A DNA stretch of 32,611 nt. Origin: Nitrososphaeraceae archaeon (lineage in GTDB: Archaea; Thermoproteota; Nitrososphaeria; Nitrososphaerales; Nitrososphaeraceae). A program made the position numbers and the translations under genes. Under the pieces are notes generated by a model, which saw only the letters and a program-made list of their open reading frames with translations, made no database searches and had not been told where the DNA came from. The stretch covers positions 1 through 32,611 of the forward strand of contig JANWJI010000052.1 in NCBI GenBank assembly GCA_025449515.1, read 5' to 3'. Positions 3,361-21,408 of this stretch are shown here, piece after piece (position 1 is the stretch's first letter; each line of letters opens with the position of its first letter).

Positions 3361-3407
3361 CCAAAAATTATTTCGGTGCGAAAACTATCATTACGTTCTA
3401 CCTATTT

Positions 3408-6017
3408 ATGAAATTATTTAAGCTTGCTGATCTTGGTCATAAATACAAAACCTTTAATAGATTACAACCAAAATGTGTAACTGTACTATTGGCTTTCCGT
3501 CATTATACCGGCGATGGCGATAGGTCCTCGACGTCTGAACATCCGCAACAAAATCATTTGGTCCGTACATTGGGTTTGGTGGATGTTATAATGATCGGCA
3601 TAGCGGGGATGATTGGTGGCGCAATTTTTGTGCTAGTTGGTCCGGCTATAGGCCTGGCAGGAAGCGCAGTAATTATAGCATTCATTATCAATGGAATTAT
3701 CACCCTTTTTACGGCAATGGGTTATGCGGAGTTGGGTTCGGCTATGCCGGAAGCAGGGGGAGGATATCTGTGGGTTAGGGAGGGTTTGCCTAGACCAAAC
3801 GCCTTTATAAGTGGATGGATGGCCTGGTTTGCTCATATCGTAGCTGGCAGCTTATACGCAGTGGGATATGGTTCATTTCAGTACAGCCTATTAAAGATGT
3901 TAGGTATAGTAGGGAATGATCCGCTTTTTGGCATAATTCCGATAGACAAACTTATTGCTGTCTTATCTATTGCTGCGTTTACCTACATTAATGTCAAAGG
4001 CGTTTCTGAGGCAGGAAAGGTGGGAATAATTGTTACGATTATCCAACTCGGAACTATTTTTGCCCTAATAGGCGCTGGAATATTAACTATGCACGGCAAT
4101 CCTGATTGGTATACAAATATTACATCCAACTTCGCGGCTAACGGTATAGGAGGCATAGTGGCTGCAATGGGTCTGACATTTATTGCGTTTGAGGGATATG
4201 AAATTATCGTTCAGACAGGAGAAGAAGTGAAAAATCCTAAGAAAAACATCCCCAGAGCAATTTTCATTTCTCTGACTCTTGTAGTATTGCTTTATTGTTT
4301 AGTTGCGTTTGTCTCTGTCGGAGCGATTTTTCACAAGAATATTGGGGATTCCAGTACTCCCTGGCAGTTCATAGGTGAAAATGGGGATCTAGGAATCATG
4401 AGGGCGGCACAACTATTTTTACCTTATGGCTCTTTCATTATTCTAGCGGGCGGCATTGTATCAAGTCTGGCTGCTTTGAATGCCACTACTTACTCTTCTT
4501 CTAGGGTTGCGTTCGCGATGGGTAGGCATTATAATCTCCCCCATCAGCTTAGCACTATACATAGTAAGTTCAAAACGCCCTATATCGCCACAATAATTTC
4601 CGGAGTAATAATGGCCATAATGGCTTATTCTCTTCCCCTTACACAAATTGCAATTGCATCAGGGGTGATTTTTTTACTACTTTTTACCCAAGTAAATATT
4701 TCAGTTATTACGATCAGAAAAATGTATGGAGATAAGTTAGACTATGGATTCAAGACTCCCTTCTTTCCCGTTATTCCAATTATCGGGGTTTTTCTAAAAC
4801 TAGGCCTTGCAATTTATCTGCTAATTACACAGCCTATGAGTTGGGTAATCAGTCTATTGTGGATTGGTGTAGGCTTTTTCTTGTATAGGATATATACTTT
4901 CAGGAAAGAGATTGATCACTATGCGCCGTTGATTACGAGTGAGGGTGATCTTACTAGGAGAGATTTTCGAATTTTGATCCCTTACACTCCGGAGAATCCA
5001 GATAGACTGATAAAATATGCGATAAGAGTTGCGAAGGAGAACGGGGGTGAAATCAATATTTTGCGGATTATTACAGTTCCGCACCAGACGCCACTTTCCG
5101 CAGGAGTTGCGTTCACGGAGTCCGCAAGAAGAGCTTTCGAACCGTTGGAAACCATGATCGAAAGAGAGAACATTCTAAACCACTATCTTGTAAGGATATC
5201 TCATGATACTACGGAGGCGATATTAGCAACAATTGAGGAGCAAAGAATCGATCTTATGATCACAGACTTTGAAACCTATCGTAACAATAAAGCCCTTCAA
5301 ACGCTAGTAACCTGCAATGTATTGGCCATTCTGACTGGCGGGACTAGTGATGAAGACCTCATACTCGAGGAACCTCGTTTCATAGAGCCGCAATTAGGGA
5401 CACAGCAACCGGGATCGCATGAGAGGGAACATGGGCGAAGTATGATCGCTTCCCCGACTACCAAGAAAAATTTGGTAGTCTTGTATGATAGCGAAAACCA
5501 CTCCGATATAGTATTGAAAACTGCTAGTTGGCTTGAGCGTTCTGGCAAGTTCAAAGTGAGCGTGTTATCTGTAGAAAAGCGGGAGGACGGAGAGAGTCAT
5601 AAGAGCGACAAGACCAGCAATAAGAACAGGAATTTTGGCGAAGAACGGTATGATGGAATTCGAGAAGAACCAGAATTTAGAAAGGACGAGATAGAAGATC
5701 TTTTGACAGAACGAGATCAGCATAGACAATATCTCGAACAGATTGGAGTAGAATTTAACGAAATTTATTTATCGAAAAGGACAGAAAGTAATAGTCAACA
5801 GTTTGCAAGACTGCTACTTTCTGCAATAAATGCCTCTCAAGCCGATTTATTAGTAACTGGCGCTAGCATTGGGAAATACGATCTTTTTAATAATCAACAT
5901 TTTATTTCAATGTTGGACAAGCTTAACTGCCCAACGATTATTGCGAAAAGCTTTTCCATCCCTGGTGTAAGCAGGATAAGGTCTGTGATAATGAGGATAT
6001 TTCAAAGACAAACTTAA
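3408..6017 (+). CDS. APC-superfamily amino acid permease fused to two universal stress protein domains
   Basis: A predicted cytoplasmic-membrane amino acid or amine transporter. Residues about 50-500 are the APC permease with roughly 12 membrane helices. The first carries GIAGMIGGAIFVLVG, the unwound Gly-rich TM1 motif that binds substrate in this family. MPEAGGGYLWVREG follows TM2. From about 520 to 640 (DFRILIPYTPENPDRL onward) and about 665 to 850 (NLVVLYDSENHSDIVL onward, ending LLVTGASIG) are two USP-like Rossmann domains, expected in the cytoplasm, where they may bind a nucleotide and tune transport. A charged, probably disordered insert (about 705-750) lies inside the second one. The first ~50 residues are not part of the permease fold, so the true start could be later. 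It is single-gene, with long intergenic DNA upstream. The substrate cannot be told from sequence. Confidence 0.88.
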   Translation: MKLFKLADLGHKYKTFNRLQPKCVTVLLAFRHYTGDGDRSSTSEHPQQNHLVRTLGLVDVIMIGIAGMIGGAIFVLVGPAIGLAGSAVIIAFIINGIITLFTAMGYAELGSAMPEAGGGYLWVREGLPRPNAFISGWMAWFAHIVAGSLYAVGYGSFQYSLLKMLGIVGNDPLFGIIPIDKLIAVLSIAAFTYINVKGVSEAGKVGIIVTIIQLGTIFALIGAGILTMHGNPDWYTNITSNFAANGIGGIVAAMGLTFIAFEGYEIIVQTGEEVKNPKKNIPRAIFISLTLVVLLYCLVAFVSVGAIFHKNIGDSSTPWQFIGENGDLGIMRAAQLFLPYGSFIILAGGIVSSLAALNATTYSSSRVAFAMGRHYNLPHQLSTIHSKFKTPYIATIISGVIMAIMAYSLPLTQIAIASGVIFLLLFTQVNISVITIRKMYGDKLDYGFKTPFFPVIPIIGVFLKLGLAIYLLITQPMSWVISLLWIGVGFFLYRIYTFRKEIDHYAPLITSEGDLTRRDFRILIPYTPENPDRLIKYAIRVAKENGGEINILRIITVPHQTPLSAGVAFTESARRAFEPLETMIERENILNHYLVRISHDTTEAILATIEEQRIDLMITDFETYRNNKALQTLVTCNVLAILTGGTSDEDLILEEPRFIEPQLGTQQPGSHEREHGRSMIASPTTKKNLVVLYDSENHSDIVLKTASWLERSGKFKVSVLSVEKREDGESHKSDKTSNKNRNFGEERYDGIREEPEFRKDEIEDLLTERDQHRQYLEQIGVEFNEIYLSKRTESNSQQFARLLLSAINASQADLLVTGASIGKYDLFNNQHFISMLDKLNCPTIIAKSFSIPGVSRIRSVIMRIFQRQT

Positions 6018-6235
6018 CTTGTCACGAAGGTATTGGTTGCTGCATGAAAACGTATTTTTTTGCTATAGTCTAGATTATTTGATAGGCAGTCGATGCAATA
6101 CTTCCAATTTATTATTGATGCAAGTCTTATGTCTACATGTTCCGGATCGCGATTGAGAACGCGAACGGCTTCTGACAAGGTATGAGAAAGCCTTAATTTA
6201 TGGATGGAAGATGATCCTCGAATCTCGTTTATCAA
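6014..6235 (-). CDS. Possible small protein (73 aa), unknown function
   Basis: Converges on the permease gene with a 4-nt overlap. From a TTG at 6235, directly after an in-frame TGA three codons upstream, it reads a helical segment (SEAVRVLNRDPEHVDIRLAS) followed by NWKYCIDCLSNN with a CxxC pair. Composition and varied third positions look coding, and a TATA-like GATTTATGA lies about 23 nt before the TTG. No family is recognised. It could be a chance ORF, since conservation cannot be tested here. Confidence 0.42.
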   Translation of the reverse strand: MINEIRGSSSIHKLRLSHTLSEAVRVLNRDPEHVDIRLASIINWKYCIDCLSNNLDYSKKIRFHAATNTFVTS

Positions 6236-7322
6236 ATGTTCAGTTCAAGTTTTAGTCATAAATCCGCTACAAACATAATTTTTTCATCAAATGCTATCTT
6301 ATCGACCACGCAAAGTCTACGTAGACAGGATATGTTCTAGGAGAGTAGATCTATCAATGTGCTGTGAAGCACTATATACTATACTGGTAGCACTATGATG
6401 CTACAAACCTTTCTTGGATGGGAAATTTATTAAATGAGTTATATTCTGTTGATGAACGATAATACATGCAATATCAAGGTAACTCATCAATATAACCCAT
6501 TTTGTTAAGCCATACGAACAAACTTGACCTAAATTGCTTTGATAATAATCCTATTCAGAATTTAATTATGATGAATCATTCAATGCGGATCTGTTAGTAA
6601 ATTGGGATAATAAAAAGAAACCTTCTTGATTCGTTTGGACATCCCTTAATGAGATGAGTTTCATTGTGATTTATTAAATGAAATGATCTCAATAACCCAT
6701 ATCAAATTGAGTATTATCGAGGACTTCTTGTATTCAGTAATCGAGTAACCTGGAGGACAATCCTCTCGGGAAGCTTTCACATAGTTAAGACTAGCCTTAT
6801 CGTTCAAAGCTGTGGGTCGATCACACTGCTCGATTTGGAAAATAAATCGACTTGAGCTCAAAAACGCAGGAAAATACGTGAAAATGTGAGGAATAAGATT
6901 TGCATAAGTACATCATCAGGGTAGCTATTGCCACGAATAGGAGCGGCTCAAGAATTACTAATGCAGACTTACCAGGAGGATTCAATACCTAAAAAAAATG
7001 TGAACGAATGGGTGATCTAATTTTTTGATCGTGCTATACATGCAGTTCAAACTCAGGAATATCATTGGCAAGTTAACTTTGACTCCTCTGAGGCTCGCAA
7101 AATGAACTATAGTTGATCCTTAAAAAGTAGCATTGGAGATAATTGAAAATCCTTGATTTCAATATTCGACATGGACTGACTAGCAAGCTGCAGAAAAATT
7201 CAAAAGAAGATACATGAATATGGTCTCACTCAGGGATTTAATAGTTTCAGACGGATAATCTGTCGAAATTTATCCAAATCTTCATATTGCACTGTGCACA
7301 TCTGGAACGAGAATTCTTGAAT
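6236..7322. other. Long intergenic stretch with repeat copy and hairpin
   Basis: No supported gene. It contains the second copy of the 22-bp direct repeat (6375-6396). That copy overlaps a perfect 6-bp inverted repeat, GTAGCA-CTATGA-TGCTAC (6387-6404). A minus-strand 66-codon ORF at 6661-6861 (with REDCPPGYSITEY) has plausible composition but only a TTG start and no promoter; I leave it uncalled. Confidence 0.45.
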
Positions 7323-7703
7323 CTAATTAATTAATGTCTTCCTGTATGCAAAATGTTTTTCATTCCAATGTCTTACAAACAAGTTAGAATTTCTTTCTAA
7401 CCCAGAGTATGAATGAATCATAAAATAGTTCATAAATCTGACACATATCCTGTTACATTCTGTGCATGTATTCAAGTATGAGGAAGAGTATCCATAAGCT
7501 TCGCCAACTACGCATTTTGAGGAATTCCTAATTTCTACATACCATCTGAACCATTTAATCGAAAGTGGAAATGGCAGACATTTACCTTCTTCCAGACGAT
7601 TATGCCATTTGGGGGATAAGTCGTGTAAGGTCATTTTTTTTTCATTAGGAGGATGAAGGTCCACCTCGGCTGAATGTGTATGTTTTATGTGTTTGACTAG
7701 CAT
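7323..7703 (-). CDS. Hypothetical small protein with Cys/His-rich C-terminus
   Basis: Read from the ATG at 7703 (126 aa). The track's GTG four codons upstream is less likely, and an ATG at 7634 (103 aa) is also possible. The N-terminus is basic and His-rich. The body has WHNRLEEGKCLPFPLSIKWF and then KCVVGEAYGYSSSY, followed by a CxxC (TCTEC), an aromatic helix and RHWNEKH. The CxxC plus HxxxxH pattern could bind zinc. Aromatic content and lack of low-complexity sequence argue that it is real, but I do not recognise the family. It stands alone in a gene-poor region. A TTAAATTT-type element lies about 38 nt upstream of the ATG. Confidence 0.5.
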   Translation of the reverse strand: MLVKHIKHTHSAEVDLHPPNEKKMTLHDLSPKWHNRLEEGKCLPFPLSIKWFRWYVEIRNSSKCVVGEAYGYSSSYLNTCTECNRICVRFMNYFMIHSYSGLERNSNLFVRHWNEKHFAYRKTLIN

Positions 7704-7715
7704 TCTAGCTACCAC

Positions 7716-8280
7716 ATCTTATTGTATAGACATCAAAATTTAAGAACATATCTCATACATATAGGCCTCAGATTTCGTTATCGCTCCGGGTCACCCTATA
7801 TTTTTGGCTACACTATGCCTTTCCGATAGGTTCAGTGAAGACTATCTACGTACAAAGCTGATGTCAACATAAATATATCAAAATTTAATCCGATCCGTAG
7901 CAATAGACGTCTATGGTAATTTCCATTGATTGTTGTAGAGCTTCTTAAATGAGCAGAATATGGACGCTGGATTATTTACAGGTATTTATTTCATCGACCA
8001 ATTATTGGCCTGATAATCTTAACACACTTCATCTTGCTTGTAGATCCTCTCTACTGGTGGCGTAATTGCATGTCACTGGGCGGGAAACTCAAACAGCTCT
8101 GTTTGATGTTTTATGTCATACCATCCATATATCCAAAGAATGGAATTGAGTTCAACTCATATTCATGTTAATTTCGATTCATCGAGTAATAGTGCCTTAT
8201 TTGGAAAAGTATTGCTTATCAAACGCTTATCAACTAATATTGAAACTAAGCTTCGAATAATATCCTTGAAATAAGGTCAA
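7716..8280. other. Intergenic stretch, nothing recognised
   Basis: About 560 nt without a supported gene, RNA or repeat. Confidence 0.5.
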
Positions 8281-8661
8281 TTAAGAACCCATCATACCAG
8301 GTATTTTTAGTGGGGTCCTGTACGTTCTGGTAACCTTCAATCCATGATCAGCAATGACAGTCACTGACTTTAAAGATGAGTTATTTGGAGGCGAAAGCAT
8401 TATCTTCTGTCCTGGAGGCAGTGAATTAATCCTCTCCGTGGATTTATCATCGTATATTACCGTAATGTTATTCAGAGTTAATTTTCCAGTATTTGTAACC
8501 ATTACCCTAGCCGTATTAAAGAGATTCTGATTATCTTTAATCGGATCCACGTCAAGAGCAAAATTTTTCGTTGCAAGCGAGAATATAGACAATAGCAGCA
8601 TTACTGAAATAACAGCAATTGCTGCGCTTACGGAGGCAAGGACAATTGCGTTCTTGTTCAA
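8281..8661 (-). CDS. Membrane-anchored extracytoplasmic protein with Ig/CARDB-like domain
   Basis: 126 aa. Residues 5-32 form one strongly hydrophobic N-terminal helix (AIVLASVSAAIAVISVMLLL), a signal anchor. The remaining ~90 residues alternate in a beta pattern, with RVMVTNTGKLTLNNITVIYDD and SLPPGQKIMLSPP. This is the layout of archaeal CARDB/Ig-like repeats, in which a conserved NTG turn is followed by a linker rich in Pro and Gly. It is expected to face outside the membrane, perhaps in the cell envelope or as part of a pilus-like assembly. The start is TTG at 8661, set by an in-frame TGA close upstream and by a TATA box 34 nt before it. No operon partner is visible. Confidence 0.68.
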   Translation of the reverse strand: MNKNAIVLASVSAAIAVISVMLLLSIFSLATKNFALDVDPIKDNQNLFNTARVMVTNTGKLTLNNITVIYDDKSTERINSLPPGQKIMLSPPNNSSLKSVTVIADHGLKVTRTYRTPLKIPGMMGS

Positions 8662-8690
8662 TATGATTCAATGGTGATATGCCAAAAAAG

Positions 8691-8699
8691 ATATATAGG
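8691..8699 (-). promoter_or_regulatory. TATA box of the membrane-anchored protein gene
   Basis: CCTATATAT on the minus strand, centred about 34 nt before the TTG start; this predicts a leader of only a few bases. Confidence 0.55.
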
Positions 8700-8980
8700 T
8701 TTGATCATAAATTAGCAACCTTCGGGTTCTAATAATGCAGCACACTGAGTCATTTATGAGGGGAAAAGTCGTTCCTAAAATAACAATACAAGATTCATAT
8801 TTTCCAGCTGAATATGGCTTTATAGTCCTCGCCCAACCACTATTGGGTTAGGCTTGTATGGCTGGCCGACCTTTTGTAGCTCTTAGGCGAAATGTATTCG
8901 CGAATGGCTAAATACCATGGAGTGTAATCCATTTCATTGAACGTATTGTAAATAATGTAAGACAAATAAAAATTCACGCC
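8700..8980. other. Intergenic stretch with short inverted repeats
   Basis: No ORF is supported. A locally structured section at about 8826-8880 has CCCAACC facing GGGTTAGG, but it does not match any RNA class I can name. Confidence 0.35.
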
Positions 8981-9142
8981 ATGATCCAGCCATTGGCAGT
9001 AACGATAGCCTGCAGAAGAGAAAAATGCAGCGGAACGTTGTCATTCACTGCCAATGAATTGAAAGTCGTTCCGAATTCTATATTCTGGATCTGTACTATA
9101 TGCGGAGAAAAAAATATAGATGAATTGGTTATTTTGCGTTAG
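8981..9142 (+). CDS. Small zinc-ribbon protein (53 aa)
   Basis: Absent from the ORF track. From ATG 8981 to TAG 9140-9142 it reads MIQPLAVTIACRREKCSG, a beta-rich middle, then FWICTICGEKN and a hydrophobic end. The Cys pattern C-x4-C ... C-x2-C with beta strands between is a zinc-ribbon layout. No upstream in-frame ATG exists nearby. Function is unknown. A following short Cys-containing frame (ATG 9157 to TAA 9270, 37 codons, with TCQFC) has the same flavour but weaker support. Confidence 0.6.
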   Translation: MIQPLAVTIACRREKCSGTLSFTANELKVVPNSIFWICTICGEKNIDELVILR

Positions 9143-9497
9143 TCCGATCGAATGTTATGTGTTGTAATGATGCATTTGGATTAGATCGTACATGTCAATT
9201 TTGTATCGATTTAGGAATTCTCGATACGTCTATATATCGTAATTTGGCTAATTGTAAGGGGATGAGGTAATATTCGCTGCTCCAATCTGAGTTTAAAACT
9301 ATGAAGACCTCGCGACGAACCGACCTATTATAGTACACAATTAAATTATCGGCAAGAATCTTTACGTACTATTTGTTTTCCTTTAGGAAATATCGACCAG
9401 TTAATTTCTCCTCCTTTAATCCTGAACATCTTAAACATAGAGGACCAAATCAAAGTCTCAAACATATTTTAATATAAAGTCCATCATAATCTAGTGT
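9143..9497. other. Intergenic stretch upstream of radical SAM gene
   Basis: Holds the weak 37-codon Cys-containing frame at 9157-9270 mentioned above, and the promoter of the radical SAM gene at its end. Nothing else is recognised. Confidence 0.4.
9467..9479 (+). promoter_or_regulatory. TATA box of the radical SAM gene
   Basis: TTTTAATATAAAG centred about 25 nt before the ATG at 9498, fitting a leaderless transcript. Confidence 0.6.
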
Positions 9498-10379
9498 ATG
9501 CAAATCGTTTATGATTATCCCTTGTACAGGCCCCCGTCTGAAGCTAACTCTGTGATATTTCAAGTTACAATTGGTTGTTCGTATAACAAGTGTTCATTCT
9601 GCAATATGTATAGAACGAAGCAATATGCGGAACGACCGTTGGATGAATCAAAAACGGAAATAGATCTTATTGCCGCCGAGCAGCCATGGACTCGGCGCAT
9701 TTTTTTAGCAGACGGAGATGCCCTCAACCTTCAAACCAACATCTTACAACAAATCTTGGAATATTTATATTTGAAATTCAAAAACCTTGAACGGGTTTCA
9801 TGTTATGCAATGCCTAAGAATCTATTACAGAAAAAGGATACCGACTTGCAATTGCTTAGAGAAGCAGGCTTGACTATGCTCTATGTTGGTATTGAAAGTG
9901 GCAATGACGTTGTCTTGAGGAAGATAACTAAAGGTGCCACTCAAAATGGCATAGTTCAAAGTTGTAAGAAAGCAAAGAAGCATGGATTCACTCTGTCGTG
10001 CATGATAATTTTAGGAATTGGTGGTAAGACATATTCTCGTCAACACATAATCGATACAGCAAGAATGGTGAGCAAGATTTCCCCTGATTACTTGGCTGCG
10101 TTGACTTTACATTTAGAAGCTGGCGTTTACGATGAGTTCATGAACAAGTATTCTGATACATTCGACCCATTAGACGATTTGGATATATTGGAGGAATTGG
10201 ACTCTCTTATTAGAGAACTGGCCCCGATAAATCCGGTATTGTTCCGAGCTAATCACGCATCAAACATCTATTCCATTGGTGGCACTATTCCTCAAGATAG
10301 AGATGGATTGTTAGCTCTAGTTGATGAATTGAAACATCATCCAGAAATGCTAAGAGACAAGAGTATAAGACGATTTTGA
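9498..10379 (+). CDS. Radical SAM protein (COG1032-like) with CX4CX2C cluster motif
   Basis: 293 aa. Predicted to bind a [4Fe-4S] cluster and S-adenosylmethionine and start radical chemistry. The cluster motif is GCSYNKCSFCNMY with Cys 27, 32 and 35, i.e. CX4CX2C. Next come FLADGDAL (residues ~69-76, GGE-motif equivalent region), YVGIESGND (residues ~128-136, the typical SAM ribose-binding segment) and SCMIILGIGGK. It covers the core partial TIM barrel with only a short C-terminal extension, and there is no B12-binding or TRAM domain. The spacing is seen in this uncharacterised COG1032 subgroup. The reaction and substrate are unknown, and no partner gene is adjacent. The TATA box placed 25 nt upstream supports the ATG at 9498. 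Confidence 0.85.
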   Translation: MQIVYDYPLYRPPSEANSVIFQVTIGCSYNKCSFCNMYRTKQYAERPLDESKTEIDLIAAEQPWTRRIFLADGDALNLQTNILQQILEYLYLKFKNLERVSCYAMPKNLLQKKDTDLQLLREAGLTMLYVGIESGNDVVLRKITKGATQNGIVQSCKKAKKHGFTLSCMIILGIGGKTYSRQHIIDTARMVSKISPDYLAALTLHLEAGVYDEFMNKYSDTFDPLDDLDILEELDSLIRELAPINPVLFRANHASNIYSIGGTIPQDRDGLLALVDELKHHPEMLRDKSIRRF

Positions 10380-10680
10380 TGTCGCAAAACGCCGGAGTTT
10401 CGCCCCTTAGTATTCATTTGTAAGGTCTGTACTAGTAGCAACACGAATATAACTCCGATATGGATTTGTCAGCAAGTATTCTCGAGTCATTCTCGGGGTA
10501 TTAATATAATAGATTGAGCACACGTCATAACCTAAACTATCGCTTTATTGTAGACACACAAATCTGCTATTAAACAATTCTTCACAAATACATCTGCAAT
10601 AACATATTAAATTGCTATATATTTGATTAATTAACGGTGTAGAGAAAAAGAAATTTAGGCGACAGATTCGGTTTTACACT
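10380..10680. other. Convergent intergenic stretch
   Basis: Sits between the 3' ends of the radical SAM gene (+) and the small membrane protein gene (-). Only a weak AAAC-GCCGGA-GTTT inverted repeat (about 10386) is seen near the radical SAM stop. No gene is supported. Confidence 0.4.
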
Positions 10681-10965
10681 TCACCAATGGTGCTTCTCGT
10701 CTGGGATTAAACCAATCTGTTCACGTTCAAAGTACCTTTCGAGTTCCTGAGTCCATTTTTCCTTTGCAGCACCACCACCAAGACCCTTTCTCCTTAACCA
10801 AAATGCAATAACGCTCAGCAAAAATACTGCGAACAGCATTACTCCGAAGATGTAGACCATTACATCATAGAATAGTGGGTCATAAGCAGGTCCAATCTGC
10901 TTCATCAAGTTTTCGAATCCATAACTTACCATTGCCACAATGCCTAGGATAGCGCTCATTATCAT
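10681..10965 (-). CDS. Small membrane protein, candidate AMO accessory subunit (AmoY/AmoZ-like)
   Basis: 94 aa from the ATG at 10965. The track starts at a TTG three codons earlier, but a TATA box centred 25 nt before 10965 makes that ATG the leaderless start. Residues 4-20 form a short hydrophobic helix. Residues ~33-57 (DVMVYIFGVMLFAVFLLSVI) form a clear membrane helix. It is followed by RRKGLGGG and a charged soluble tail ending KHHW, with two His at the C-terminus. Size, single-span build and lack of a paralogue fit the small conserved proteins proposed as extra archaeal AMO subunits (AmoY, AmoZ). In Nitrososphaera viennensis, as I recall, these are neighbouring genes, as this one and the next are here. 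Assignment rests on this resemblance, not on alignment. It could be an unrelated small membrane protein. Confidence 0.6.
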   Translation of the reverse strand: MIMSAILGIVAMVSYGFENLMKQIGPAYDPLFYDVMVYIFGVMLFAVFLLSVIAFWLRRKGLGGGAAKEKWTQELERYFEREQIGLIPDEKHHW

Positions 10966-10985
10966 ATAGAGCAAATAAGATCTTC

Positions 10986-10994
10986 GATATATAC
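10986..10994 (-). promoter_or_regulatory. TATA box of the small membrane protein gene
   Basis: GTATATATC on the minus strand, centred about 25 nt before the ATG at 10965; it selects that ATG over the upstream TTG. Confidence 0.6.
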
Positions 10995-11331
10995 ATTTTG
11001 GTTAAATTCAAGGTTGCCAAGGCGGCCACAATACATGCTATTAGAAACTGTCTTGAATCAAGCATTTAGCATCACTTGTGAACCAGGTAATTCGTCCGTA
11101 ACAATAAGCTAATAATCTTATGGAAGCATATCCCAAATATCTTTAGATCTACTTGTGTAGTCCAATAAGCTATTGATTATTTTGCGCCTTTGTTGAAATC
11201 TAAAACTGTGGGTGTCTGGGATGCAAGCGATGATATGACTGTTCCCGATGCAGGTCTACAGTATAAATCCTCGTGTATAAAGTTCTCCAAAAATAAGTAT
11301 AATCATAATATATAAAAAAAGATTACTTCGG

Positions 11332-11649
11332 TTATCGTGCCACTTCTTTCTTCTTGCTCCTACCCATAATGAAGAATGCTGCTGCTACTCCGCCAAATAT
11401 CACTGCGAGAATAATGATGAAAAGTACAGTCTCGTTGATGTTAGTTCCAAGCATAGGTGTACCTGATCCGTAAGCTCCAGCACTTTTAGCATTGCTTATT
11501 TTTTCTCGCGCCAATTTTAACTGCTCCTCGATATTACCTCCTGTTACTCCACCGTATTGAGCTTTAGCTATCTCAATTGATGGTAAAGCAAACACAGAAA
11601 TAGCCAGCGCTGCCGCAACCGCAACAGCCGCTATAGTAGGCTTGTTCAT
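11332..11649 (-). CDS. Secreted single-span protein, candidate AMO accessory subunit (AmoZ/AmoY-like)
   Basis: 105 aa from the ATG at 11649. The track's TTG start eight codons upstream would spoil the signal peptide, and the TATA box 29 nt before 11649 argues against it. Residues 1-30 are a signal peptide, MNKPTIAAVAVAAALAISVF, with probable cleavage after AKA. A short extracytoplasmic part (about 31-70) has a helix EEQLKLAREKISNAK. One membrane helix (about 73-95) and a basic tail RSKKKEVAR follow, so the topology is N-outside, C-inside. It lies on the same strand as the previous small membrane protein and diverges from rps15. The pair is a candidate for the AmoY/AmoZ subunits proposed for archaeal AMO. 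Which would be which cannot be settled by eye. Confidence 0.6.
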   Translation of the reverse strand: MNKPTIAAVAVAAALAISVFALPSIEIAKAQYGGVTGGNIEEQLKLAREKISNAKSAGAYGSGTPMLGTNINETVLFIIILAVIFGGVAAAFFIMGRSKKKEVAR

Positions 11650-11673
11650 ATAACATATTACGACATGAGTCAA

Positions 11674-11682
11674 TTATTTAAC
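11674..11682 (-). promoter_or_regulatory. TATA box of the secreted single-span protein gene
   Basis: GTTAAATAA on the minus strand, centred about 29 nt before the ATG at 11649. Confidence 0.55.
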
Positions 11683-11718
11683 TTTTGTCTACGTGGATAG
11701 ACAGATAAACTTAAGTAA

Positions 11719-11727
11719 CGTTTAAGA
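11719..11727 (+). promoter_or_regulatory. Probable TATA box of the rps15 operon
   Basis: CGTTTAAGA, centred about 28 nt before the rps15 ATG. It is back-to-back with the divergent promoter at 11674-11682. Confidence 0.45.
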
Positions 11728-11750
11728 GAAACGGTTGGCCCTGAACAATC

Positions 11751-12200
11751 ATGTCAAGAATGCATGCACATACTCATGGAAAGTCTCATAGTGTTCGCCC
11801 AGTTTCTATAAATGTCCCTAATTGGCTGACGCAAGATTATACTCAGGTATCGTCTCTAATTCTTCAATTATCAAAAGAAGGACTGGTGCCAAGTGAAATT
11901 GGTGTACGTTTGCGTGACCATCACGGTATACCCTTGGCAAAACCAATCATAGGCAAGTCAGTAACAAAGGTGCTGAGTGAGAGTGGTATATCTCGTGAAA
12001 TGCCTGAAGATTTAGATCAGCTAGTGAAGAAAGCCTTGGGCCTTCAGAGACACTTGAGGTCTCATAATACCGATCATAGAAATGTTCGCTCGCTGGAATT
12101 AATAGAGTCCAAAATCCATAGGCTTTCAAGATACTACAAGGAAAAAGGAAAGCTTCAAAAAAATTGGAAGTATGCGACTGTTATAGCACAGCTAGAATAA
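11751..12200 (+). CDS. rps15: Ribosomal protein S15 (uS15)
   Basis: 149 aa, the usual length for archaeal/eukaryotic uS15 with its N-terminal extension. MSRMHAHTHGKSHSVRP is the conserved basic start. Residues ~22-60 carry the helical domain with the GLVPSEIGVRLRDHHGIP segment, and the C-terminal 16S rRNA-binding part has HRNVRSLELIESKIHRLSRY. It assembles into the central domain of the 30S subunit. It is the first gene of an operon followed 9 nt later by the DHH protein gene, then pcc1 and serS. The rps15-recJ-pcc1 order is a known conserved archaeal neighbourhood. Confidence 0.95.
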   Translation: MSRMHAHTHGKSHSVRPVSINVPNWLTQDYTQVSSLILQLSKEGLVPSEIGVRLRDHHGIPLAKPIIGKSVTKVLSESGISREMPEDLDQLVKKALGLQRHLRSHNTDHRNVRSLELIESKIHRLSRYYKEKGKLQKNWKYATVIAQLE

Positions 12201-12209
12201 TAAGTTGGC

Positions 12210-13640
12210 ATGGGTAGAAAGGAACTCTATGAAAGGTTAGGACAATTTAACGAAAGAATAGAGTCTGCCGTTGAAAATGAGAAAAGCATCGCAATAGTTA
12301 CCTCTGCGAACCCTGATGGATTATGTTCGGGTGGTATAGCTGCGACATGCATATTCAGGCTTGGAGGCAGGTGCTCTATTCGTACAGTTCTCGAGTTGAC
12401 CCCAGAAATGATAACTGATCTCAAATCGTCAGGATACGATCTATTCATATTCATGGATCTTGGCACTACTACGGTCAATAAACTGCGCCATTCATTAGGT
12501 GCTAGGTGGCTTCTTATTGATCATCAAATTATCACAGAAGAGGCTGAAGAAAAATTGTCTGCAGATCACGTTATTAATTTGACGGGGTGCGGAATTGATG
12601 GCGAAAAAGAAATCTCATCGGGAGGGCTAGCGTACCTTCTTGCCCTAGAAGCGAGTAATAAGAATAAGGATCTTTCTACGCTTGCAGTCGTATCAGCGTT
12701 AGCAGAAAAACAAGATATAGGTGAAAAAAGGTCGCTTATAGGGATCAATTCTGAAATTGTCAATACAGCTCAATCAATCGGCGCTCTATCAGTTAAGTCC
12801 GGCTTGCTGATTACTGGGGAGACTATGCCAATTCATGAAGCGATAGCTTCCAATTTGTCCCCTTGTATAGACGGCTTAACTTGGAATTATGAAAATTCAT
12901 ACTCGCTGACAAAAAATTCTGGACTTCAAATGAAGAATAAGAATGGACAGTGGCGTATACTTGCGGAACTCGATCAAGAGGAAAGAGGAATCCTAGCTGA
13001 GGCAATTATAAAATTTATGGTCACATCTCCCAACACAGGACTCCCCCAACCAGAAGATCTAACCGGATCAATTTATAGCCTTAGAGAGGATCCGGAGACC
13101 TCTATTAGAGATGCCAGACAATTCGTAGAATTACTAAGAGCCTGCGGATCTGCAAACAAGGGTGGAATAGGTGTAGGGATTTGTATGGGTGACAGGAGGG
13201 CTATATTAGATGAAGGAGAGAGAATATTTTTGGCCTATAAGGAGACTCTAAAGGAGAACATATCCAGAATTTTTTCAGAAAGATGGCGCTTTAACGACTA
13301 TGGAAATTGTGTATATGTTTTTGGAGAGGGAGCTGTACATGAAACCATGATTGATTCAGTTTGTTCGTTTCTGGCCGGGTGTCTATCATTAAATAATAAG
13401 GTTCTGTTAGTAAGAACGATAACTAAAGACAACTCGCATTACAAATTTTGTATGACAAGAGGATTTAGATCCAAGTTTCCGCCTATTCTTGGAGATCTGG
13501 TGAAAAGCTCTTCTGAACAGATAGGAGGTGCTGCATGGGGCCGACTAAATTCAGCTATCTGCGAGATTCCATTAATGAGCTTAGATGATTTCATGATATC
13601 CATTAGAACAAAGATTAGGGACGCAGAATTTGAAGATTAA
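12210..13640 (+). CDS. RecJ/GAN/Cdc45-like DHH-family protein with degenerate active site
   Basis: 476 aa, matching the length of archaeal RecJ-like proteins of the replisome (GAN), the homologues of eukaryotic Cdc45 that join MCM and GINS. The fold landmarks are there: motif I SANPDGLCSGG (residues 32-42), motif II IFMDLGTT around Asp83, motif III LLIDHQII (104-106), motif IV SSGGLAYLLA, and a C-terminal DHHA1 region ending IGGAAWGRLNSA. The catalytic pattern is eroded. HxDxDG is SANPDG (His to Ser, first Asp to Asn), DHH is DHQ, and the GGGH of DHHA1 is GGAAW. This predicts little or no nuclease activity and a structural, Cdc45-like role. It lies 9 nt after rps15, and its end overlaps pcc1 by 11 nt, so they are probably co-transcribed and translationally coupled. 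Confidence 0.85.
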   Translation: MGRKELYERLGQFNERIESAVENEKSIAIVTSANPDGLCSGGIAATCIFRLGGRCSIRTVLELTPEMITDLKSSGYDLFIFMDLGTTTVNKLRHSLGARWLLIDHQIITEEAEEKLSADHVINLTGCGIDGEKEISSGGLAYLLALEASNKNKDLSTLAVVSALAEKQDIGEKRSLIGINSEIVNTAQSIGALSVKSGLLITGETMPIHEAIASNLSPCIDGLTWNYENSYSLTKNSGLQMKNKNGQWRILAELDQEERGILAEAIIKFMVTSPNTGLPQPEDLTGSIYSLREDPETSIRDARQFVELLRACGSANKGGIGVGICMGDRRAILDEGERIFLAYKETLKENISRIFSERWRFNDYGNCVYVFGEGAVHETMIDSVCSFLAGCLSLNNKVLLVRTITKDNSHYKFCMTRGFRSKFPPILGDLVKSSSEQIGGAAWGRLNSAICEIPLMSLDDFMISIRTKIRDAEFED

Positions 13641-13884
13641 TGTTGAATCTCACGTACATTTGGAACTAAAATTCGAAACAAAATCAGAATTGTTTGCAGT
13701 TATGAATTCGTTAATTCCAGATAACATCGACTGTCCTGACGGATTGGTAGTAGAGATGTATGACAAGCATAACTGCCTAGTATTTGACATCTCGTGCAAG
13801 AGAGAAATTTTTGTCATTATGAGTACAGTCGACGAAATTCTGAGGCACATTGTAATGGCAAAACAGGTAATTTCCAATGCTTGA
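13630..13884 (+). CDS. pcc1: KEOPS complex subunit Pcc1
   Basis: 84 aa, the normal size of archaeal Pcc1. It dimerises and scaffolds Kae1 in the KEOPS complex, which makes the t6A37 modification of ANN-reading tRNAs. The beta-alpha-beta-beta-alpha pattern is readable: strand HVHLELKFE, helix KSELFAVMNSLIPDN, the conserved P-G turn CPDGLVVEMYD, strand NCLVFDISC, and the last helix STVDEILRHIVMAKQV. The start is TTG at 13630, 11 nt inside the DHH gene. The only nearby ATG is out of frame. Its end overlaps serS by 8 nt. Placement with a ribosomal protein and serS fits a translation-linked operon. Confidence 0.85.
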   Translation: MKINVESHVHLELKFETKSELFAVMNSLIPDNIDCPDGLVVEMYDKHNCLVFDISCKREIFVIMSTVDEILRHIVMAKQVISNA

Positions 13885-15145
13885 TGTTAATCTCCTAAAG
13901 AATCCAAGTTTATTAAAAGGCATGCTCGTAAGGAGAAATTTGCAATTTCCACTGGAAGAATTATTACAATTGGATTCAAGAAGGAGAGACCTGAACATCA
14001 AGGTTGATGAAATTAGACATAGGAAAAATGTCCTAGCCAATCTGATCTCGACGAAAAGGAAGGTGGATAGCGATGCTCTAGAAGAGATAAAATTGATGAA
14101 TGAAATTAGTAACAATCTATCTAATCTGCAGGCTGAAAAATATGAACTTGACGTAAAATTTAAACGATTAATGATGATGTTACCTAATCTATTATTAGTA
14201 TCTGTGCCTTCTGGGAACACTGAATCGGACAACGTATTCGTAAGATCTAGCGGAACTACAAGGACTCTAAATTTTCAACCTAAAGACCACATCGATTTAA
14301 GCACTTCCCTTGACTTGGTCGATTTCGAAAGAGCGGCCAAAATTGCTGGCTCTAGGTTTTACTTCTTGAAGAATGATCTTGTACTATTGAACCAAGCATT
14401 GATACGAATGGCCTTAGATTTCTTGTCAGACAAATCCTACATACTATTGCAACCTCCTTATATGATTCGAAAAGAAGCTATGGAAGGTGCAGTGATGCTA
14501 GGAGATTTCGAGCAGGTCATCTATAAGATTGAAGAGGAAGATCTTTTTATGATAGGGACATCTGAACACGCGATGGCCTCAATGCATATGAACGAGATCC
14601 TAGAAGGCAGCAAGCTTCCGATAAAATATGGGGCCATTAGCCCTTGCTTCAGAAAGGAAGCCGGAGCTCATGGCAAAGATATGAAAGGAATATTCAGGGT
14701 TCATCAATTTGAAAAGGTCGAGCAATTTGTTTACTCTCGCCCAGAAGAGTCTGAAAAACAACATGATATTATGTTAGCAGTCACCGAGGATTTCTACGAG
14801 CACTTGGGAATTCCAACACGCACGATGTTACTCTGTTCTGGAGATTTAGGTAAGACTTCAGCTAAAACATTTGACCTCGAAGCATGGATGCCAGGCCAAA
14901 ACGCCTATCGTGAAATAGTCTCATGTTCGAATTGTATAGATTACCAAGCTAGAGGATTACATATACGATTCAGAGACAAGCCTAATGAAGAGACAAGACT
15001 AGTCCACACACTGAATAGCACACTAGTCGCTACAGAGCGTTGTATGGTGGCTATACTCGAGAACTATCAAACTAATAGAGGCACAGTTGAAGTCCCTGGT
15101 GCCCTTTGGAAATATATGAACGATCGTAAAGAAATTGAGCTGTAA
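13877..15145 (+). CDS. serS: Seryl-tRNA synthetase
   Basis: 422 aa, the usual length for standard (bacterial/eukaryotic-type, not methanogen-type) SerRS. It charges tRNA-Ser in the cytoplasm. Residues ~25-105 are the long antiparallel coiled-coil arm that recognises the tRNA-Ser variable arm (RRRDLNIKVDEIRHRKNVL on the first helix). The class II catalytic core follows with GTSEHAMASMH (serine pocket), motif 2 FRKEAGAHGKDMKGIFRVHQ, and motif 3 LVATERCMVAILENYQ. The C-terminus has the expected EVPGALWKYM. The ATG at 13877 overlaps the end of pcc1. It is the last gene of the rps15 operon, ending convergent to amoB. Confidence 0.95.
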   Translation: MLDVNLLKNPSLLKGMLVRRNLQFPLEELLQLDSRRRDLNIKVDEIRHRKNVLANLISTKRKVDSDALEEIKLMNEISNNLSNLQAEKYELDVKFKRLMMMLPNLLLVSVPSGNTESDNVFVRSSGTTRTLNFQPKDHIDLSTSLDLVDFERAAKIAGSRFYFLKNDLVLLNQALIRMALDFLSDKSYILLQPPYMIRKEAMEGAVMLGDFEQVIYKIEEEDLFMIGTSEHAMASMHMNEILEGSKLPIKYGAISPCFRKEAGAHGKDMKGIFRVHQFEKVEQFVYSRPEESEKQHDIMLAVTEDFYEHLGIPTRTMLLCSGDLGKTSAKTFDLEAWMPGQNAYREIVSCSNCIDYQARGLHIRFRDKPNEETRLVHTLNSTLVATERCMVAILENYQTNRGTVEVPGALWKYMNDRKEIEL

Positions 15146-15224
15146 TTTCTAGGACGTACCGGAATACGACGAATCATGTTAGAGTTCTGGGATTCACGTA
15201 TCCGTAAGCTGACTGTGATAAGAA

Positions 15225-15242
15225 AGTGAAAATAAAAAGTTA
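15225..15242 (-). terminator. Probable T-rich terminator after amoB
   Basis: On the minus strand, just past the amoB stop, the sequence is AACTTTTTATTTTCACTTT. Archaeal transcription stops at such T-rich tracts. It also lies in the short convergent gap behind serS. Confidence 0.5.
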
Positions 15243-15256
15243 GGAAAGTGCGGTTG

Positions 15257-15814
15257 TTAGATAACTTGCCAGGGCCGAGTAGCGAAGGTTACACCTAATC
15301 CAGCGCCAATAACAATCACTTGGTAGGCCACATTGCCCCATGGAACAGGCTTGAGTATTGCAGGACCCGATACTTGAACTGTTTGACCCGGACCGAGGCC
15401 TGGCCCAATGTGTTCAATATTCAGTTGAGTGTGAACGTGGTAAGTGCCAGGTTCCAATGCCTTTACTGTTATTGAGTACGGAATGCTTGCTCCCGCGGGA
15501 ATATCAAATATGTTGCCTGGAGGATCTCTAGACAGAAATTCCCATCTATTCCCTGCATTTGTCGACTCACTAAATAGGGACAGCCATGCTCTCAGAGGCC
15601 GATTAACCAAACTCTGAAGCGTTCCAGTAACGGTTAGTGTATCACCTGTATGCATAGTCTGAGTTGAAAATGATTCGTCACTTATTCTAACAAATCTGCT
15701 CTGTAGCTGAGCCTGTACTCCGTGGCCATGTGCTGCTGGTAAGAATGCCAGTATTGTAGACAACACCGTTACCGCAACGAGAGACGTCACTATATACGTC
15801 TTACACTTGATCAT
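15257..15814 (-). CDS. amoB: Ammonia monooxygenase subunit B
   Basis: 185 aa from the ATG at 15814. The track's GTG at 15844 lies at the TATA box and upstream of the predicted transcript start, so it is rejected. AmoB is the extracytoplasmic copper-binding subunit of ammonia monooxygenase, which oxidises NH3 to hydroxylamine. Residues 1-30 are a signal peptide, cleaved before HGVQAQLQSRF, leaving His31 at the mature N-terminus as in PmoB. HVH (126/128) supplies the other two copper ligands of that site. A single cupredoxin-like domain follows. A C-terminal membrane helix lies at about 160-178. Archaeal AmoB is this short because it lacks the second membrane helix and the second cupredoxin domain of bacterial AmoB. 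It is on the opposite strand from amoX and amoA. Confidence 0.95.
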   Translation of the reverse strand: MIKCKTYIVTSLVAVTVLSTILAFLPAAHGHGVQAQLQSRFVRISDESFSTQTMHTGDTLTVTGTLQSLVNRPLRAWLSLFSESTNAGNRWEFLSRDPPGNIFDIPAGASIPYSITVKALEPGTYHVHTQLNIEHIGPGLGPGQTVQVSGPAILKPVPWGNVAYQVIVIGAGLGVTFATRPWQVI

Positions 15815-15848
15815 GCCTTTGTATCTAGCGATACCAGAAGACACAAAG

Positions 15849-15857
15849 ATATATATT
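15849..15857 (-). promoter_or_regulatory. TATA box of amoB
   Basis: AAAATATATAT on the minus strand, centred about 39 nt before the ATG at 15814; it predicts a leader of around 12 nt and excludes the upstream GTG. Confidence 0.65.
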
Positions 15858-16203
15858 TTGCTATCGGATCTGGCGTCATTTTACGATTGATTGGTTGTAA
15901 AGCATTACTTTATCGGAAAAGAATCGGAACGAGTTGCCTAAAAATTACCTATAACCTAGTAATTTTATTGCACTCAAATTTGAAAAACTAATTTAGAGCA
16001 TTCTGTCTTTTTGGGCAAATGACTCAAGGTCGTATTAACTTATGCACATTCTAAATTATAGGTTCATAATATGATGTTTCAATTAGGCCGAATAAAGCCT
16101 AATGATGTCAATCACACTCGATTTATTTCTAAGATTAACTAGGTCCAAGCTGGAATTCAAAATTGCCATTCCCAATATCATTTAGACATAATATTAGAAG
16201 GAA

Positions 16204-16311
16204 TTGCAAAAGAGATATCGAATATATAACGGTAGTTACTATCTTTGCAGACATTGCGGAGAATGTATTGAAGCGAAGAGGTCCCCTCTTCATTATGACG
16301 TAACTGAATAG
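16204..16311 (+). CDS. Possible zinc-finger microprotein (35 aa) between amoB and amoX
   Basis: From a TTG at 16204 (two codons after an in-frame TAG) to TAG 16309-16311. It reads RYRIYNGSYYLCRHCGEC and then a basic, His-containing end (KRSPLHYD). The CxxCxxC cluster preceded by aromatic strands looks like half a zinc ribbon. It lies in the otherwise empty 500-nt region between the divergent amoB and amoX genes and stops two bases before the amoX TATA element. It could be a chance frame or a remnant. Confidence 0.33.
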   Translation: MQKRYRIYNGSYYLCRHCGECIEAKRSPLHYDVTE

Positions 16312-16314
16312 CAA

Positions 16315-16322
16315 TATTTAAA
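16315..16322 (+). promoter_or_regulatory. TATA box of amoX
   Basis: TATTTAAA, centred about 30 nt before the amoX ATG, fitting a leaderless or nearly leaderless transcript. Confidence 0.65.
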
Positions 16323-16348
16323 AAGGCATTGTCTTAATAATACATTAA

Positions 16349-16636
16349 ATGACATTACCGAAGGGATGGGGCACAGGTGGAAGGAGAGGCGAAAATAGAG
16401 ACGATATCGAGAAGATGATAGGCAAGAGGGTCGAAAATATGACTCCTATTTTCGTCCTAGGGTTTGCGCTTTGTTGGGTTGCTACTGCTGGAGGTGTATA
16501 TGTGGGTGTTACCATATATCCATGGGCATATCCATTGCCTAGCGGCTTGTATGCATTGTCTGTTTTAACTGTGATCGAATCACTGGGATTCCTCTTCATA
16601 ATGAAGATTTCTCACGAAAAGCTTGGTTATGCATAG
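16349..16636 (+). CDS. amoX: Ammonia monooxygenase-associated subunit AmoX
   Basis: 95 aa, typical AmoX size. AmoX is an archaea-specific small membrane protein found with the AMO genes and shown by co-purification work to be part of the complex. The N-terminus is basic and Gly/Arg-rich (PKGWGTGGRRGENRDD). There are two membrane helices, about 32-55 (PIFVLGFALCWVATAGGVYVGV) and about 64-86 (LPSGLYALSVLTVIESLGFL), with a short MKISHEKLGYA tail. It is on the same strand as amoA, 193 nt upstream, but each has its own TATA box. The ATG fits the TATA spacing; the unusual hydrophilic first 28 residues leave an internal start possible. Confidence 0.88.
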   Translation: MTLPKGWGTGGRRGENRDDIEKMIGKRVENMTPIFVLGFALCWVATAGGVYVGVTIYPWAYPLPSGLYALSVLTVIESLGFLFIMKISHEKLGYA

Positions 16637-16797
16637 TAGGATTCTACAATTCATGATTCAGCGGGCAGCATAAATACCATCATTTCCGTACGAGATTTCT
16701 CACTTCTTTTTCTAATTTTTTCAGCTTTCTGGAATGTCATTTATGCAGTAGTGAAATCTCCATTTCATAAGTGACTGACGGTTGGATTGCTCATAAA

Positions 16798-16806
16798 TTT
16801 TATATA
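16798..16806 (+). promoter_or_regulatory. TATA box of amoA
   Basis: TTTATATAT, centred 28 nt before the amoA ATG; predicts a leaderless mRNA. Confidence 0.7.
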
Positions 16807-16829
16807 TTACCTATCAGAATACGTTACCA

Positions 16830-17480
16830 ATGGTCTGGCTTCGACGCACAACGCACTATCTATTCATAATAGTAGTTGCTGTAAATAGCACACTACTGAC
16901 TATTAATGCTGGAGACTATATCTTCTACACTGATTGGGCATGGACGTCATTCGTCGTATTCTCTATCGCTCAATCTACAATGCTTGTGGTGGGGGCAATA
17001 TACTATATGCTGTTTACAGGTGTGCCTGGTACCGCTACTTATTATGCAACCATTATGACGATATATACATGGGTTGCAAAAGGCGCCTGGTTTGCATTAG
17101 GCTACCCATACGACTTCGTTACAGTACCTGTCTGGATACCTTCGGCAATGTTATTAGACTTGACTTATTGGGCGACTAGAAGGAATAAACATGCTGCTAT
17201 AATAATTGGCGGAACATTAGTAGGTCTATCTCTTCCAATGTTCAATATGATCAACCTTTTATTGATAAGGGATCCATTGGAAATAGCCTTCAAGTATCCA
17301 CGTCCGACATTACCACCATACATGACTCCCATTGAACCTCAGGTAGGTAAGTTTTACAACAGTCCTGTAGCCTTAGGAGCAGGCGCGGGAGCAGTGCTAT
17401 CAGTACCAATTGCAGCTTTGGGTGCTAAACTTAACACGTGGACATATAGATGGATGGCTGCGTGGAGTAAGTGGGACTAA
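16830..17480 (+). CDS. amoA: Ammonia monooxygenase subunit A
   Basis: 216 aa, exactly the length of group I.1b archaeal AmoA. It is an integral-membrane subunit of the copper ammonia monooxygenase in the cytoplasmic membrane. Recognised directly from its hallmark stretches: MVWLRRTTHYLF, NAGDYIFYTDWAWTSFVVFS, GVPGTATYYATIMTIYTW, AKGAWFALGYPYDF, PRPTLPPYMTPIEPQVGKF and the C-terminal TWTYRWMAAWSKWD. About six membrane helices are predicted. The ATG is fixed by the TATA box 28 nt upstream. A run of T follows the stop and probably ends the transcript. amoC is not next to it and not elsewhere in the window. Confidence 0.98.
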   Translation: MVWLRRTTHYLFIIVVAVNSTLLTINAGDYIFYTDWAWTSFVVFSIAQSTMLVVGAIYYMLFTGVPGTATYYATIMTIYTWVAKGAWFALGYPYDFVTVPVWIPSAMLLDLTYWATRRNKHAAIIIGGTLVGLSLPMFNMINLLLIRDPLEIAFKYPRPTLPPYMTPIEPQVGKFYNSPVALGAGAGAVLSVPIAALGAKLNTWTYRWMAAWSKWD

Positions 17481-17494
17481 GTCTTCCAACCTAA

Positions 17495-17513
17495 TTTTCT
17501 TTTTTTTGTTTTT
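17495..17513 (+). terminator. Poly-T terminator of amoA
   Basis: TTTTCTTTTTTTTGTTTTT begins 14 nt after the amoA stop; a strong T-run of the kind that stops archaeal RNA polymerase. Confidence 0.7.
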
Positions 17514-17759
17514 GAAGAACTTTTATTCAGAACTATAACTTGTAATAAATTCGAGCGTTGTACTTTGTATCTGTAGTAACAAGTACACGACGATGTAAAT
17601 CAGAATAAGTACTGGTCAATCACAACTTACCACCGAAGGCTGCGGCTAAGCTCTAAATCTTAACTCTATTTCAAACTCATGATTCAACTGTAATTACGCC
17701 GTATCAAACCATATCCTATATAAATTCACAGTGCATATAATGAGCTCTTCACTTAACAA
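17514..17759. other. Intergenic stretch between amoA and IS remnant
   Basis: No gene recognised. Confidence 0.4.
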
Positions 17760-18379
17760 TCTTTTCCATAATCTCTCTATTGTGCATATCTACAAATAAG
17801 CTCAACCAATTCATGACATGCTGTAGCTTACAATCATTGTCTTTCATACAAGGGAAATAATCATCAAAAAATTCGGTTCTATCTTTATGTACTGAATCGT
17901 TCTTTCAATGAAGCTTTTTTCAATCGAGGAATGATTATGATGTTGAATGTTTAGAAATCTACATGCTTGTGGATATCATGTACCACCATCGGTTGAAATA
18001 TTGTGTTTTCCATATTTTCTAATCAGTGATTTTATAAACTGTTCAGCCACAAGCATATTTCTTTCAATGGCGATACGTACACAAGATTGTTCTATCGGTT
18101 GGCTCAATAGCAACCCATAACTATACATAGTCACTGCCTACTTTAATCAACGTTTCATCTATGATAAATTCAGATAGTTTGTATCTCTTTTGTTTGCAAT
18201 ATCTTCTTTGGCTTGTAGCGCTGCATCCAGTTCCAAATGCAATCATCGTTTCTCTTGATAAATCGAGAAAGCCTTTGTGATGTTCTTCGAAGTGATAAAC
18301 CTGAAAGGTATAGCTGTAATGCATAATAAACATACTTTGAAGAGGTCCTACTTCTTTCTTTGGATGTGGACATTATCAA
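17760..18379 (-). pseudogene. Decayed IS6-family-like transposase
   Basis: Read on the minus strand with frame changes, nearly a whole DDE transposase can be followed. An N-terminal helix-turn-helix-like part has ALQLYLSGLSLRRTSQRL. After a frameshift comes EFIIDETLIKVGSDYV (first catalytic Asp), then a TAG and LWVAIEPTDR. Further on is DGGT-stop-YPQACRFL (second Asp, with the usual Trp now TGA). SSIEKSFIERTIQYIK gives the catalytic Glu, and after another frameshift DRTEFFDDYFPC and NWLSLFVDMHNREI. The order D-D-E with these motifs is that of IS6/IS240-type elements. The two track ORFs at 18121-18379 are fragments of it. At least two frameshifts and several stops make it inactive. Confidence 0.8.
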
Positions 18380-18488
18380 AATGTGGGAGGTATTTAGCTA
18401 TAGGTCTATCCGTTAACTGAACAGCGCCATATAATGACCAGATCAATAAATATACTGAATTCTCCTAGATCGAGAAAGGGAGCATCTT

Positions 18489-21408
<2,920 letters not shown>

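Follow-up and report, generated by a model that had tools for sequence, protein, structure and literature searches.

A 32,611-nt stretch of DNA from a Nitrososphaeraceae soil archaeon (here referred to as the window) almost certainly carries amoY and amoZ, coding for small accessory membrane subunits of 94 and 105 aa of the archaeal ammonia monooxygenase (AMO). The initial annotation had tentatively assigned two adjacent minus-strand genes of these lengths to AmoY and AmoZ. Both open reading frames were recovered as such (Table 1) and are real genes, their frame and protein sequence being kept across dozens of genomes, and the assignment was borne out by homology to Nitrososphaera viennensis-like proteins, by neighbor order, and by co-occurrence with AmoA. 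Both belong to an enzyme on which much of soil nitrification depends; a solved complex structure of archaeal AMO was not found in the literature. AmoY and AmoZ have already been described as AMO subunits (Hodgskiss et al. 2023, PMC10030591). Newly seen here is a soil archaeon with amoYZ near other AMO genes and with a shortened AmoZ. The linkage of amoYZ to amoB and amoXA, the shortened AmoZ, and separate conserved promoters go beyond the text of PMC10030591, the supplementary figures of which may already show deletion of the helix (as opposed to merely nonconserved cysteines) or partly linked clusters.

Table 1. Features of the amoYZ region in the window, and loci elsewhere that pair an AmoZ paralog with a membrane-bound winged-helix regulator
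Feature	Position	Strand	Description	Basis
amoY	10681..10965	-	94 aa, start ATG 10965; single membrane helix; C terminus PDEKHHW	Open reading frame and sequence
amoY, alternative start	ATG 10959	-	92 aa	
amoY core promoter, ACCAAAATGTATATATC	10986..11002	-	TATA box ~25 to 30 bp before ATG	Exact motif conservation
amoZ, short form	11332..11649	-	105 aa, start ATG 11649; signal segment, AQY, one soluble helix, GSGT, C-terminal membrane helix; cysteine-free	
amoZ core promoter, AGACAAAAGTTAAATAATTG	11671..11690	-	TATA-like box 11675-11682; 20-mer at about -39 to -42	
rps15	11751..12200	+	Divergent from amoZ; neighborhood anchor	NF006331 E 1.2e-52, Pfam S15; synteny
Presumed DHH-type gene (dhh)	12210..13640	+	Member of conserved block	Synteny
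Small conserved ORF	13630..13884	+	84 aa, between dhh and serS	Synteny
Presumed serS-like gene	13877..15145	+	End of conserved block	Synteny
amoB	15257..15844	-		PF04744 E 2.4e-11; NF041640 E 2.3e-14, below its cutoff
amoX	16349..16636	+		Homology and position beside amoA in linked loci
amoA	16830..17480	+		PF12942 E 1.9e-117
Paralog-regulator locus L058	632-1414 with 1477-1794	- with +		
Paralog-regulator locus L063	6173-7063 with 5785-6165	- with -		
Further paralog-regulator loci			L162, L164, L166-L170, L172, L173, L175, L177, L179, L180	

Pfam and NCBIfam searches with AmoY and AmoZ returned chance-level matches only, and for neither of the two nor for archaeal AmoA did PDB sequence searches yield a relative. 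Since these databases hold no family for either protein, identity was tested via orthology. Across 78 aligned residues, AmoY shared 88% identity with a protein encoded at position 374.8 kb in a 2,527,938-bp N. viennensis-like chromosome (G271), which we take to be the place of NVIE_004540 on the assumption of evenly spaced locus tags. The comparison with NVIE_004540 and NVIE_004550 suggested in the initial annotation was thus in its favor, AmoZ being the upstream neighbor in this chromosome, as is NVIE_004550 (PMC10030591). Identities to other lineages ranged from 53 to 65%, with 53% to the N. maritimus-type protein (G102) and 65% to the Nitrosocaldus-type protein. Named relatives (Nitrosocaldus, Nitrosotalea, Nitrososphaera, Nitrosocosmicus, and Nitrosopolaris) were taken from GTDB contigs. 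From Nitrosocaldus to the window, 23 AmoY columns were invariant (alignment A1), and the N-terminal 16 residues were variable. The window protein matches published AmoY in sequence, size, single membrane helix, single copy number, and adjoining amoZ, but differs from it within these 16 residues. The one strong membrane helix that had been predicted lies at residues ~33 to 58. The C-terminal His pair was likewise present, but turned out to be a family trait: HHW was found at the C terminus in Nitrososphaeraceae only, whereas Nitrosopumilaceae proteins end in PDNGKYW and those of Nitrosocaldaceae in or near PEER. Being confined to one family, the pair is not an AMO-wide metal site, and a role as a copper site was rejected; an RRK following the helix moreover suggests that it is probably cytoplasmic.

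The presence across ammonia oxidizers expected from the initial annotation was observed throughout the order: of 151 genomes, 75 encode AmoA (PF12942), and AmoY was detected in 72 of these and an AmoZ match in all 75. The AmoZ match in G200 adjoins a regulator and may be a paralog. The AmoA-positive genomes without AmoY (G082, G200, and G309) are all drafts of 130 to 720 contigs. AmoY was always present in a single copy, and its total of 73 genomes and that of AmoZ (76 genomes) each include one further genome, G287, a 200-contig draft of an ammonia-oxidizing genus and the only genome with AmoY but without AmoA. When 200 genomes sampled from the phylum were searched, the AmoY profile matched in 30, all of them among the 31 AmoA-positive genomes, and in none of the AmoA-negative ones. 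Apart from one AmoA-negative draft, AmoY was thus conserved in and exclusive to ammonia-oxidizing archaea.

The adjacency to rps15 seen at first understated the conservation of the neighborhood. In the window, amoZ lies directly upstream of amoY and is divergent from rps15, followed by dhh, a small ORF, and serS, and the same order was found in nearly all loci of the Nitrosocaldaceae, Nitrosopumilaceae, and Nitrososphaeraceae; in Nitrosocosmicus, amoY sits at the far end of the amoZ-rps15-serS block. The second gene of the block is presumably DHH-type, and from its sequence the last one presumably codes for a seryl-tRNA synthetase. Where other amo genes have left (Nitrososphaera and Nitrosocosmicus), the pair stays with rps15-dhh-serS, as might be expected of mere housekeeping neighbors of rps15 and serS whose comigration with AMO was due to chance. 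Such a role is, however, barely conceivable, given that the pair is absent from the non-ammonia-oxidizing members of the order and the phylum and that cross-links and coexpression with AMO are reported in the text of PMC10030591.

According to the text of Hodgskiss et al. (2023, PMC10030591), amoY corresponds to NVIE_004540, Nmar_1506, and NCAV_0488 and amoZ to NVIE_004550, Nmar_1507, and NCAV_0486, and the two N. viennensis proteins were named AMO subunits from gel comigration, cross-links, expression, and synteny. Complex membership rests there on blue native PAGE (BN-PAGE) comigration, cross-links, and coexpression in N. viennensis and N. cavascurensis; a gel correlation of AmoZ with AmoABC was absent in N. 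viennensis, but present in N. cavascurensis. Both genes are given among the most highly expressed of N. viennensis (log2 TPM of 13.55 for amoY and 13.39 for amoZ; PMC10030591). By analogy with the published complex, AmoY would be a one-helix membrane subunit packing against the AmoA/B/C/X core. AmoZ would be a secreted protein tethered through its C-terminal helix, with a short helical ectodomain resting on the AmoB cupredoxin domain, as in the published model. It has been proposed as a functional equivalent of the C-terminal cupredoxin domain of bacterial PmoB in contacting the soluble domain of the B subunit (model in PMC10030591), but has no sequence relation to that domain and is a separate small helical protein.

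As annotated, the 105-aa protein combines a signal, i.e., a hydrophobic N terminus ending in AKAQY, with one C-terminal membrane helix. It has the AQY, GSGT, and membrane-helix motifs in common with its orthologs, and agrees with published AmoZ in its signal segment, AQY, LAxxK helix, GSGT motif, C-terminal membrane helix, and amoY-rps15 position. AmoZ evolves faster than AmoY: identities were 34 to 63% (alignment A2), and 83% to the closest relative. Fast evolution of AmoZ has been remarked for Nitrosopolaris by Pessi et al. (PMC10117904). The low identity to N. viennensis-like AmoZ (35% over 120 columns with a gap; BLASTP E 9e-14), and the observation that some Nitrososphaera paralogs outscore true AmoZ against the window protein (E 1.5e-9 versus 1.8e-5 in G271), would also fit a scenario in which AmoY is correct but its neighbor is an AmoZ paralog instead of the true subunit. 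This is very unlikely, since no other AmoZ-like gene was found in the window's genome, the gene occupies the place in amoYZ-rps15 that is kept throughout the order, same-position orthologs occur in other Nitrososphaeraceae lineages, and paralogs mostly adjoin membrane regulators instead. Profile-profile comparison related the short form, as found in the window, to the long form with a probability of 99.9 (E 4e-33).

In contrast to published AmoZ, the window protein lacks the 17-residue two-cysteine segment of the N. viennensis type, the gap being bounded exactly by (E)EQL(K) on one side and LAxxK on the other, and hence lacks one soluble helix and the disulfide. In N. viennensis-type and Nitrosocaldaceae AmoZ, ~45 to 54 residues, a C-x(5-12)-C segment among them, separate AQ from GSGT; in the window, as in most other lineages, this span is cysteine-free and only ~32 residues long (median). 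AlphaFold predicted helices at residues 3 to 32, 40 to 57, and 71 to 98 of the window protein, only one of which (40 to 57) is soluble (mean pLDDT of 68), and two soluble helices (38 to 47 and 56 to 70) in a long-form protein (mean pLDDT of 56); although weak, with low to moderate confidence, these models agree with the alignment on the missing soluble helix. A soluble domain of two disulfide-joined helices is described in the text of PMC10030591 for Nitrososphaera and Nitrosocaldaceae only, and, without any cysteine and with the 17-residue gap, window AmoZ does not have it. Its ectodomain is predicted to form a single helix without disulfide, which might dock on AmoB via this helix and the invariant GSGT linker.

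On the tree of rps15, serS, amoY, amoA, and amoB, the form of AmoZ changes at least twice. Since Nitrosocaldaceae, Nitrososphaera, and SAT137 have the long form, this suggests that the cysteine helix was lost rather than gained, some long-branch placements being unsure. Judged by their sequences, most of the lineages sampled have retained just one half of the soluble domain of AmoZ. This domain is presented as conserved and as stabilizing AmoB in the text of PMC10030591; with half of it lost in most lineages sampled, that statement needs qualifying. Nitrosocosmicus AmoZ carries the published C-terminal four-cysteine tail, whereas the window protein has no such zinc ribbon. In the genus nearest to the window (L085, L086, L088, and L089), a charged extension of ~30 residues (SEPDWKLEAQRYKDELEAMKRNQNR) past the membrane helix occupies the place of the Nitrosocosmicus tail.

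AmoZ paralogs outside the amo locus were found in Nitrososphaera and some Nitrosopumilaceae, and in 15 of the loci examined such a paralog adjoins a membrane-bound winged-helix protein (Table 1). We know of no description of such paralog-regulator pairs. The C-terminal half of the Nitrosopumilaceae-type regulator contains an AmoZ-like ectodomain segment, ESLYMAKTKVDSVVSNPGAGSGTPY, with GSGTP (profile E 2e-7 to 3e-14 in seven proteins; hhalign E 1.2e-10 over 35 columns), and the resemblance to AmoZ was weak in the Nitrososphaera type. Near-full-length matches to the Nitrosopumilaceae-type and Nitrososphaera-type regulators were obtained in 7 and 8 of the 151 genomes, respectively, all of which have such paralogs; neither type was found in the window's genome. 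Possibly, the pair constitutes an AMO-related sensor. A broader reading, which we consider doubtful, is that AmoZ, instead of being a fixed two-helix substitute for the missing PmoB domain, is a variable module, which lost the cysteine helix at least twice (in Nitrosopumilaceae and in most Nitrososphaeraceae, that of the window among them) and similar ectodomains of which were also taken up by winged-helix regulators that are membrane-bound and paired with AmoZ paralogs. If so, a cell could use these regulators to monitor AMO or its surroundings and to adjust gene expression.

A well-placed TATA box of its own had been noted for each gene, and this held across relatives: in 94% of 49 to 52 loci, a TTTAWATA-like box (at least 7 of 8 matches) preceded the start by ~22 to 45 bp, compared to 16 to 20% in shuffles. 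Each amo gene examined in Nitrososphaeraceae has a conserved core promoter. Mean identity of this 20-bp block, which surrounds the box, to the family consensus was 97% for amoY, 94% for amoX, 91% for amoB, 89% for amoA, and 86% for amoZ, whereas shuffles gave 66 to 72% (66 to 68% for amoY and amoZ) and the non-amo neighbors rSAM and rps15 71 to 79%; the 20-mers mostly start at about -37 to -51, and serS was not compared, its upstream region being coding. The amoY promoter sequence ACCAAAATGTATATATC occurs a single time in the window's genome, and most relatives tested likewise have one copy, upstream of amoY. The motif (A/C)C(A/C)AAAAT(A/G)TATATATC was found once in 8 of 10 genomes of 2 to 4 Mb, twice in one, and was absent from one; by position, one copy lay at amoY in all nine genomes with a match, and a near form persists where amoY has moved away from amoZ (L124). 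Conserved promoters of their own, that of amoY being kept in near form after separation of the genes, speak for independent transcription of amoY and amoZ in Nitrososphaeraceae, whereas cotranscription was suggested as possible in the text of PMC10030591. The two genes would accordingly form separate transcription units, each with a strong TATA promoter near the start codon, as its conservation shows, and with a box ~25 to 30 bp before the ATG, leaders would be short or absent. The near-unique, conserved amoY motif provides a precise target for transcription studies. Rfam searches of region 8000 to 18500 gave no match, and repeats between and around amoY and amoZ were short and chance-like.

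The distance of 4 to 5 kb to amoB/amoX/amoA given in the initial annotation agrees with the measured ~3.6 to 4.3 kb for amoB and ~4.7 to 5.9 kb for amoX/amoA; amoC had no match in the window's genome, which says little for a 75%-complete assembly. Among the loci listed, amoB lies within 2.7 kb of the amoYZ-rps15-serS block in 18 of 29 scored Nitrososphaeraceae loci, but not in the other 11; 11 further loci of this family had flanks too short for scoring, and the sample is biased by draft contigs and by the restriction to 80 loci. A retained cluster was seen in the window and in L082, L084, L087, L089, L090, L092, L093, L094, L096, and L098. Three of these (L092, L094, and L096) show the order serS, small ORF, dhh, rps15, amoZ, amoY, amoB, amoX, amoA, which is the Nitrosocaldus orientation without amoC. 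L084 and L087 run amoZ-amoY-amoB-amoC to the contig end, and L090 (positions 1-8478 of JAICSL010000054.1, a Nitrososphaeraceae MAG contig of ~8.5 kb) has all six amo genes within ~4 kb in a rearranged order. In the window, L082, and L089, the same gene set is present, but the amoYZ-rps15-serS block is turned around with respect to amoB-amoXA. Because this arrangement recurs in L089 and in L082, a near relative from a separate assembly with 99% identical AmoY, the linkage in the window is not an artifact of one assembly.

Several Nitrososphaeraceae lineages, including that of the window, hence keep amoYZ within a few kilobases of amoB and amoXA. Compared to the amo clusters of Nitrosocaldaceae and Nitrosopumilaceae, the window has the same link of amoZ-amoY to amoB and amoXA and the same rps15-dhh-serS anchors, but its block runs the opposite way with respect to amoB-amoXA, and its cluster lacks amoC. 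The various arrangements give the impression of one ancestral amo cluster caught at different stages of break-up. Judging from gene order, the genes would lie close together in the window because part of this cluster survived, the amoYZ-rps15-serS block having been inverted once. Nitrososphaeraceae are described in the text of PMC10030591 as having no conserved amo operons; the published full scattering of amo genes in soil members of the family needs qualifying, as much of the ancestral cluster persists in several soil lineages.

Two further features of the region were observed. A 126-aa membrane-anchored protein with weak resemblance to DUF7507 and CopK is encoded at 8281-8661 (minus strand) of the window; it belongs to a paralogous family present in 69 of the 151 genomes of the order, apparently all of ammonia oxidizers, and located beside amoA in Nitrosocaldus (L064, L132, L133, and L136). 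Downstream of amoA, a gene pair at 18489-21408 (minus strand), which we take from its sequence to be 2-oxoacid:ferredoxin oxidoreductase-like, was also found beside amoA in L066/L089, L067/L093, L073/L116, L092, L094, and L098.
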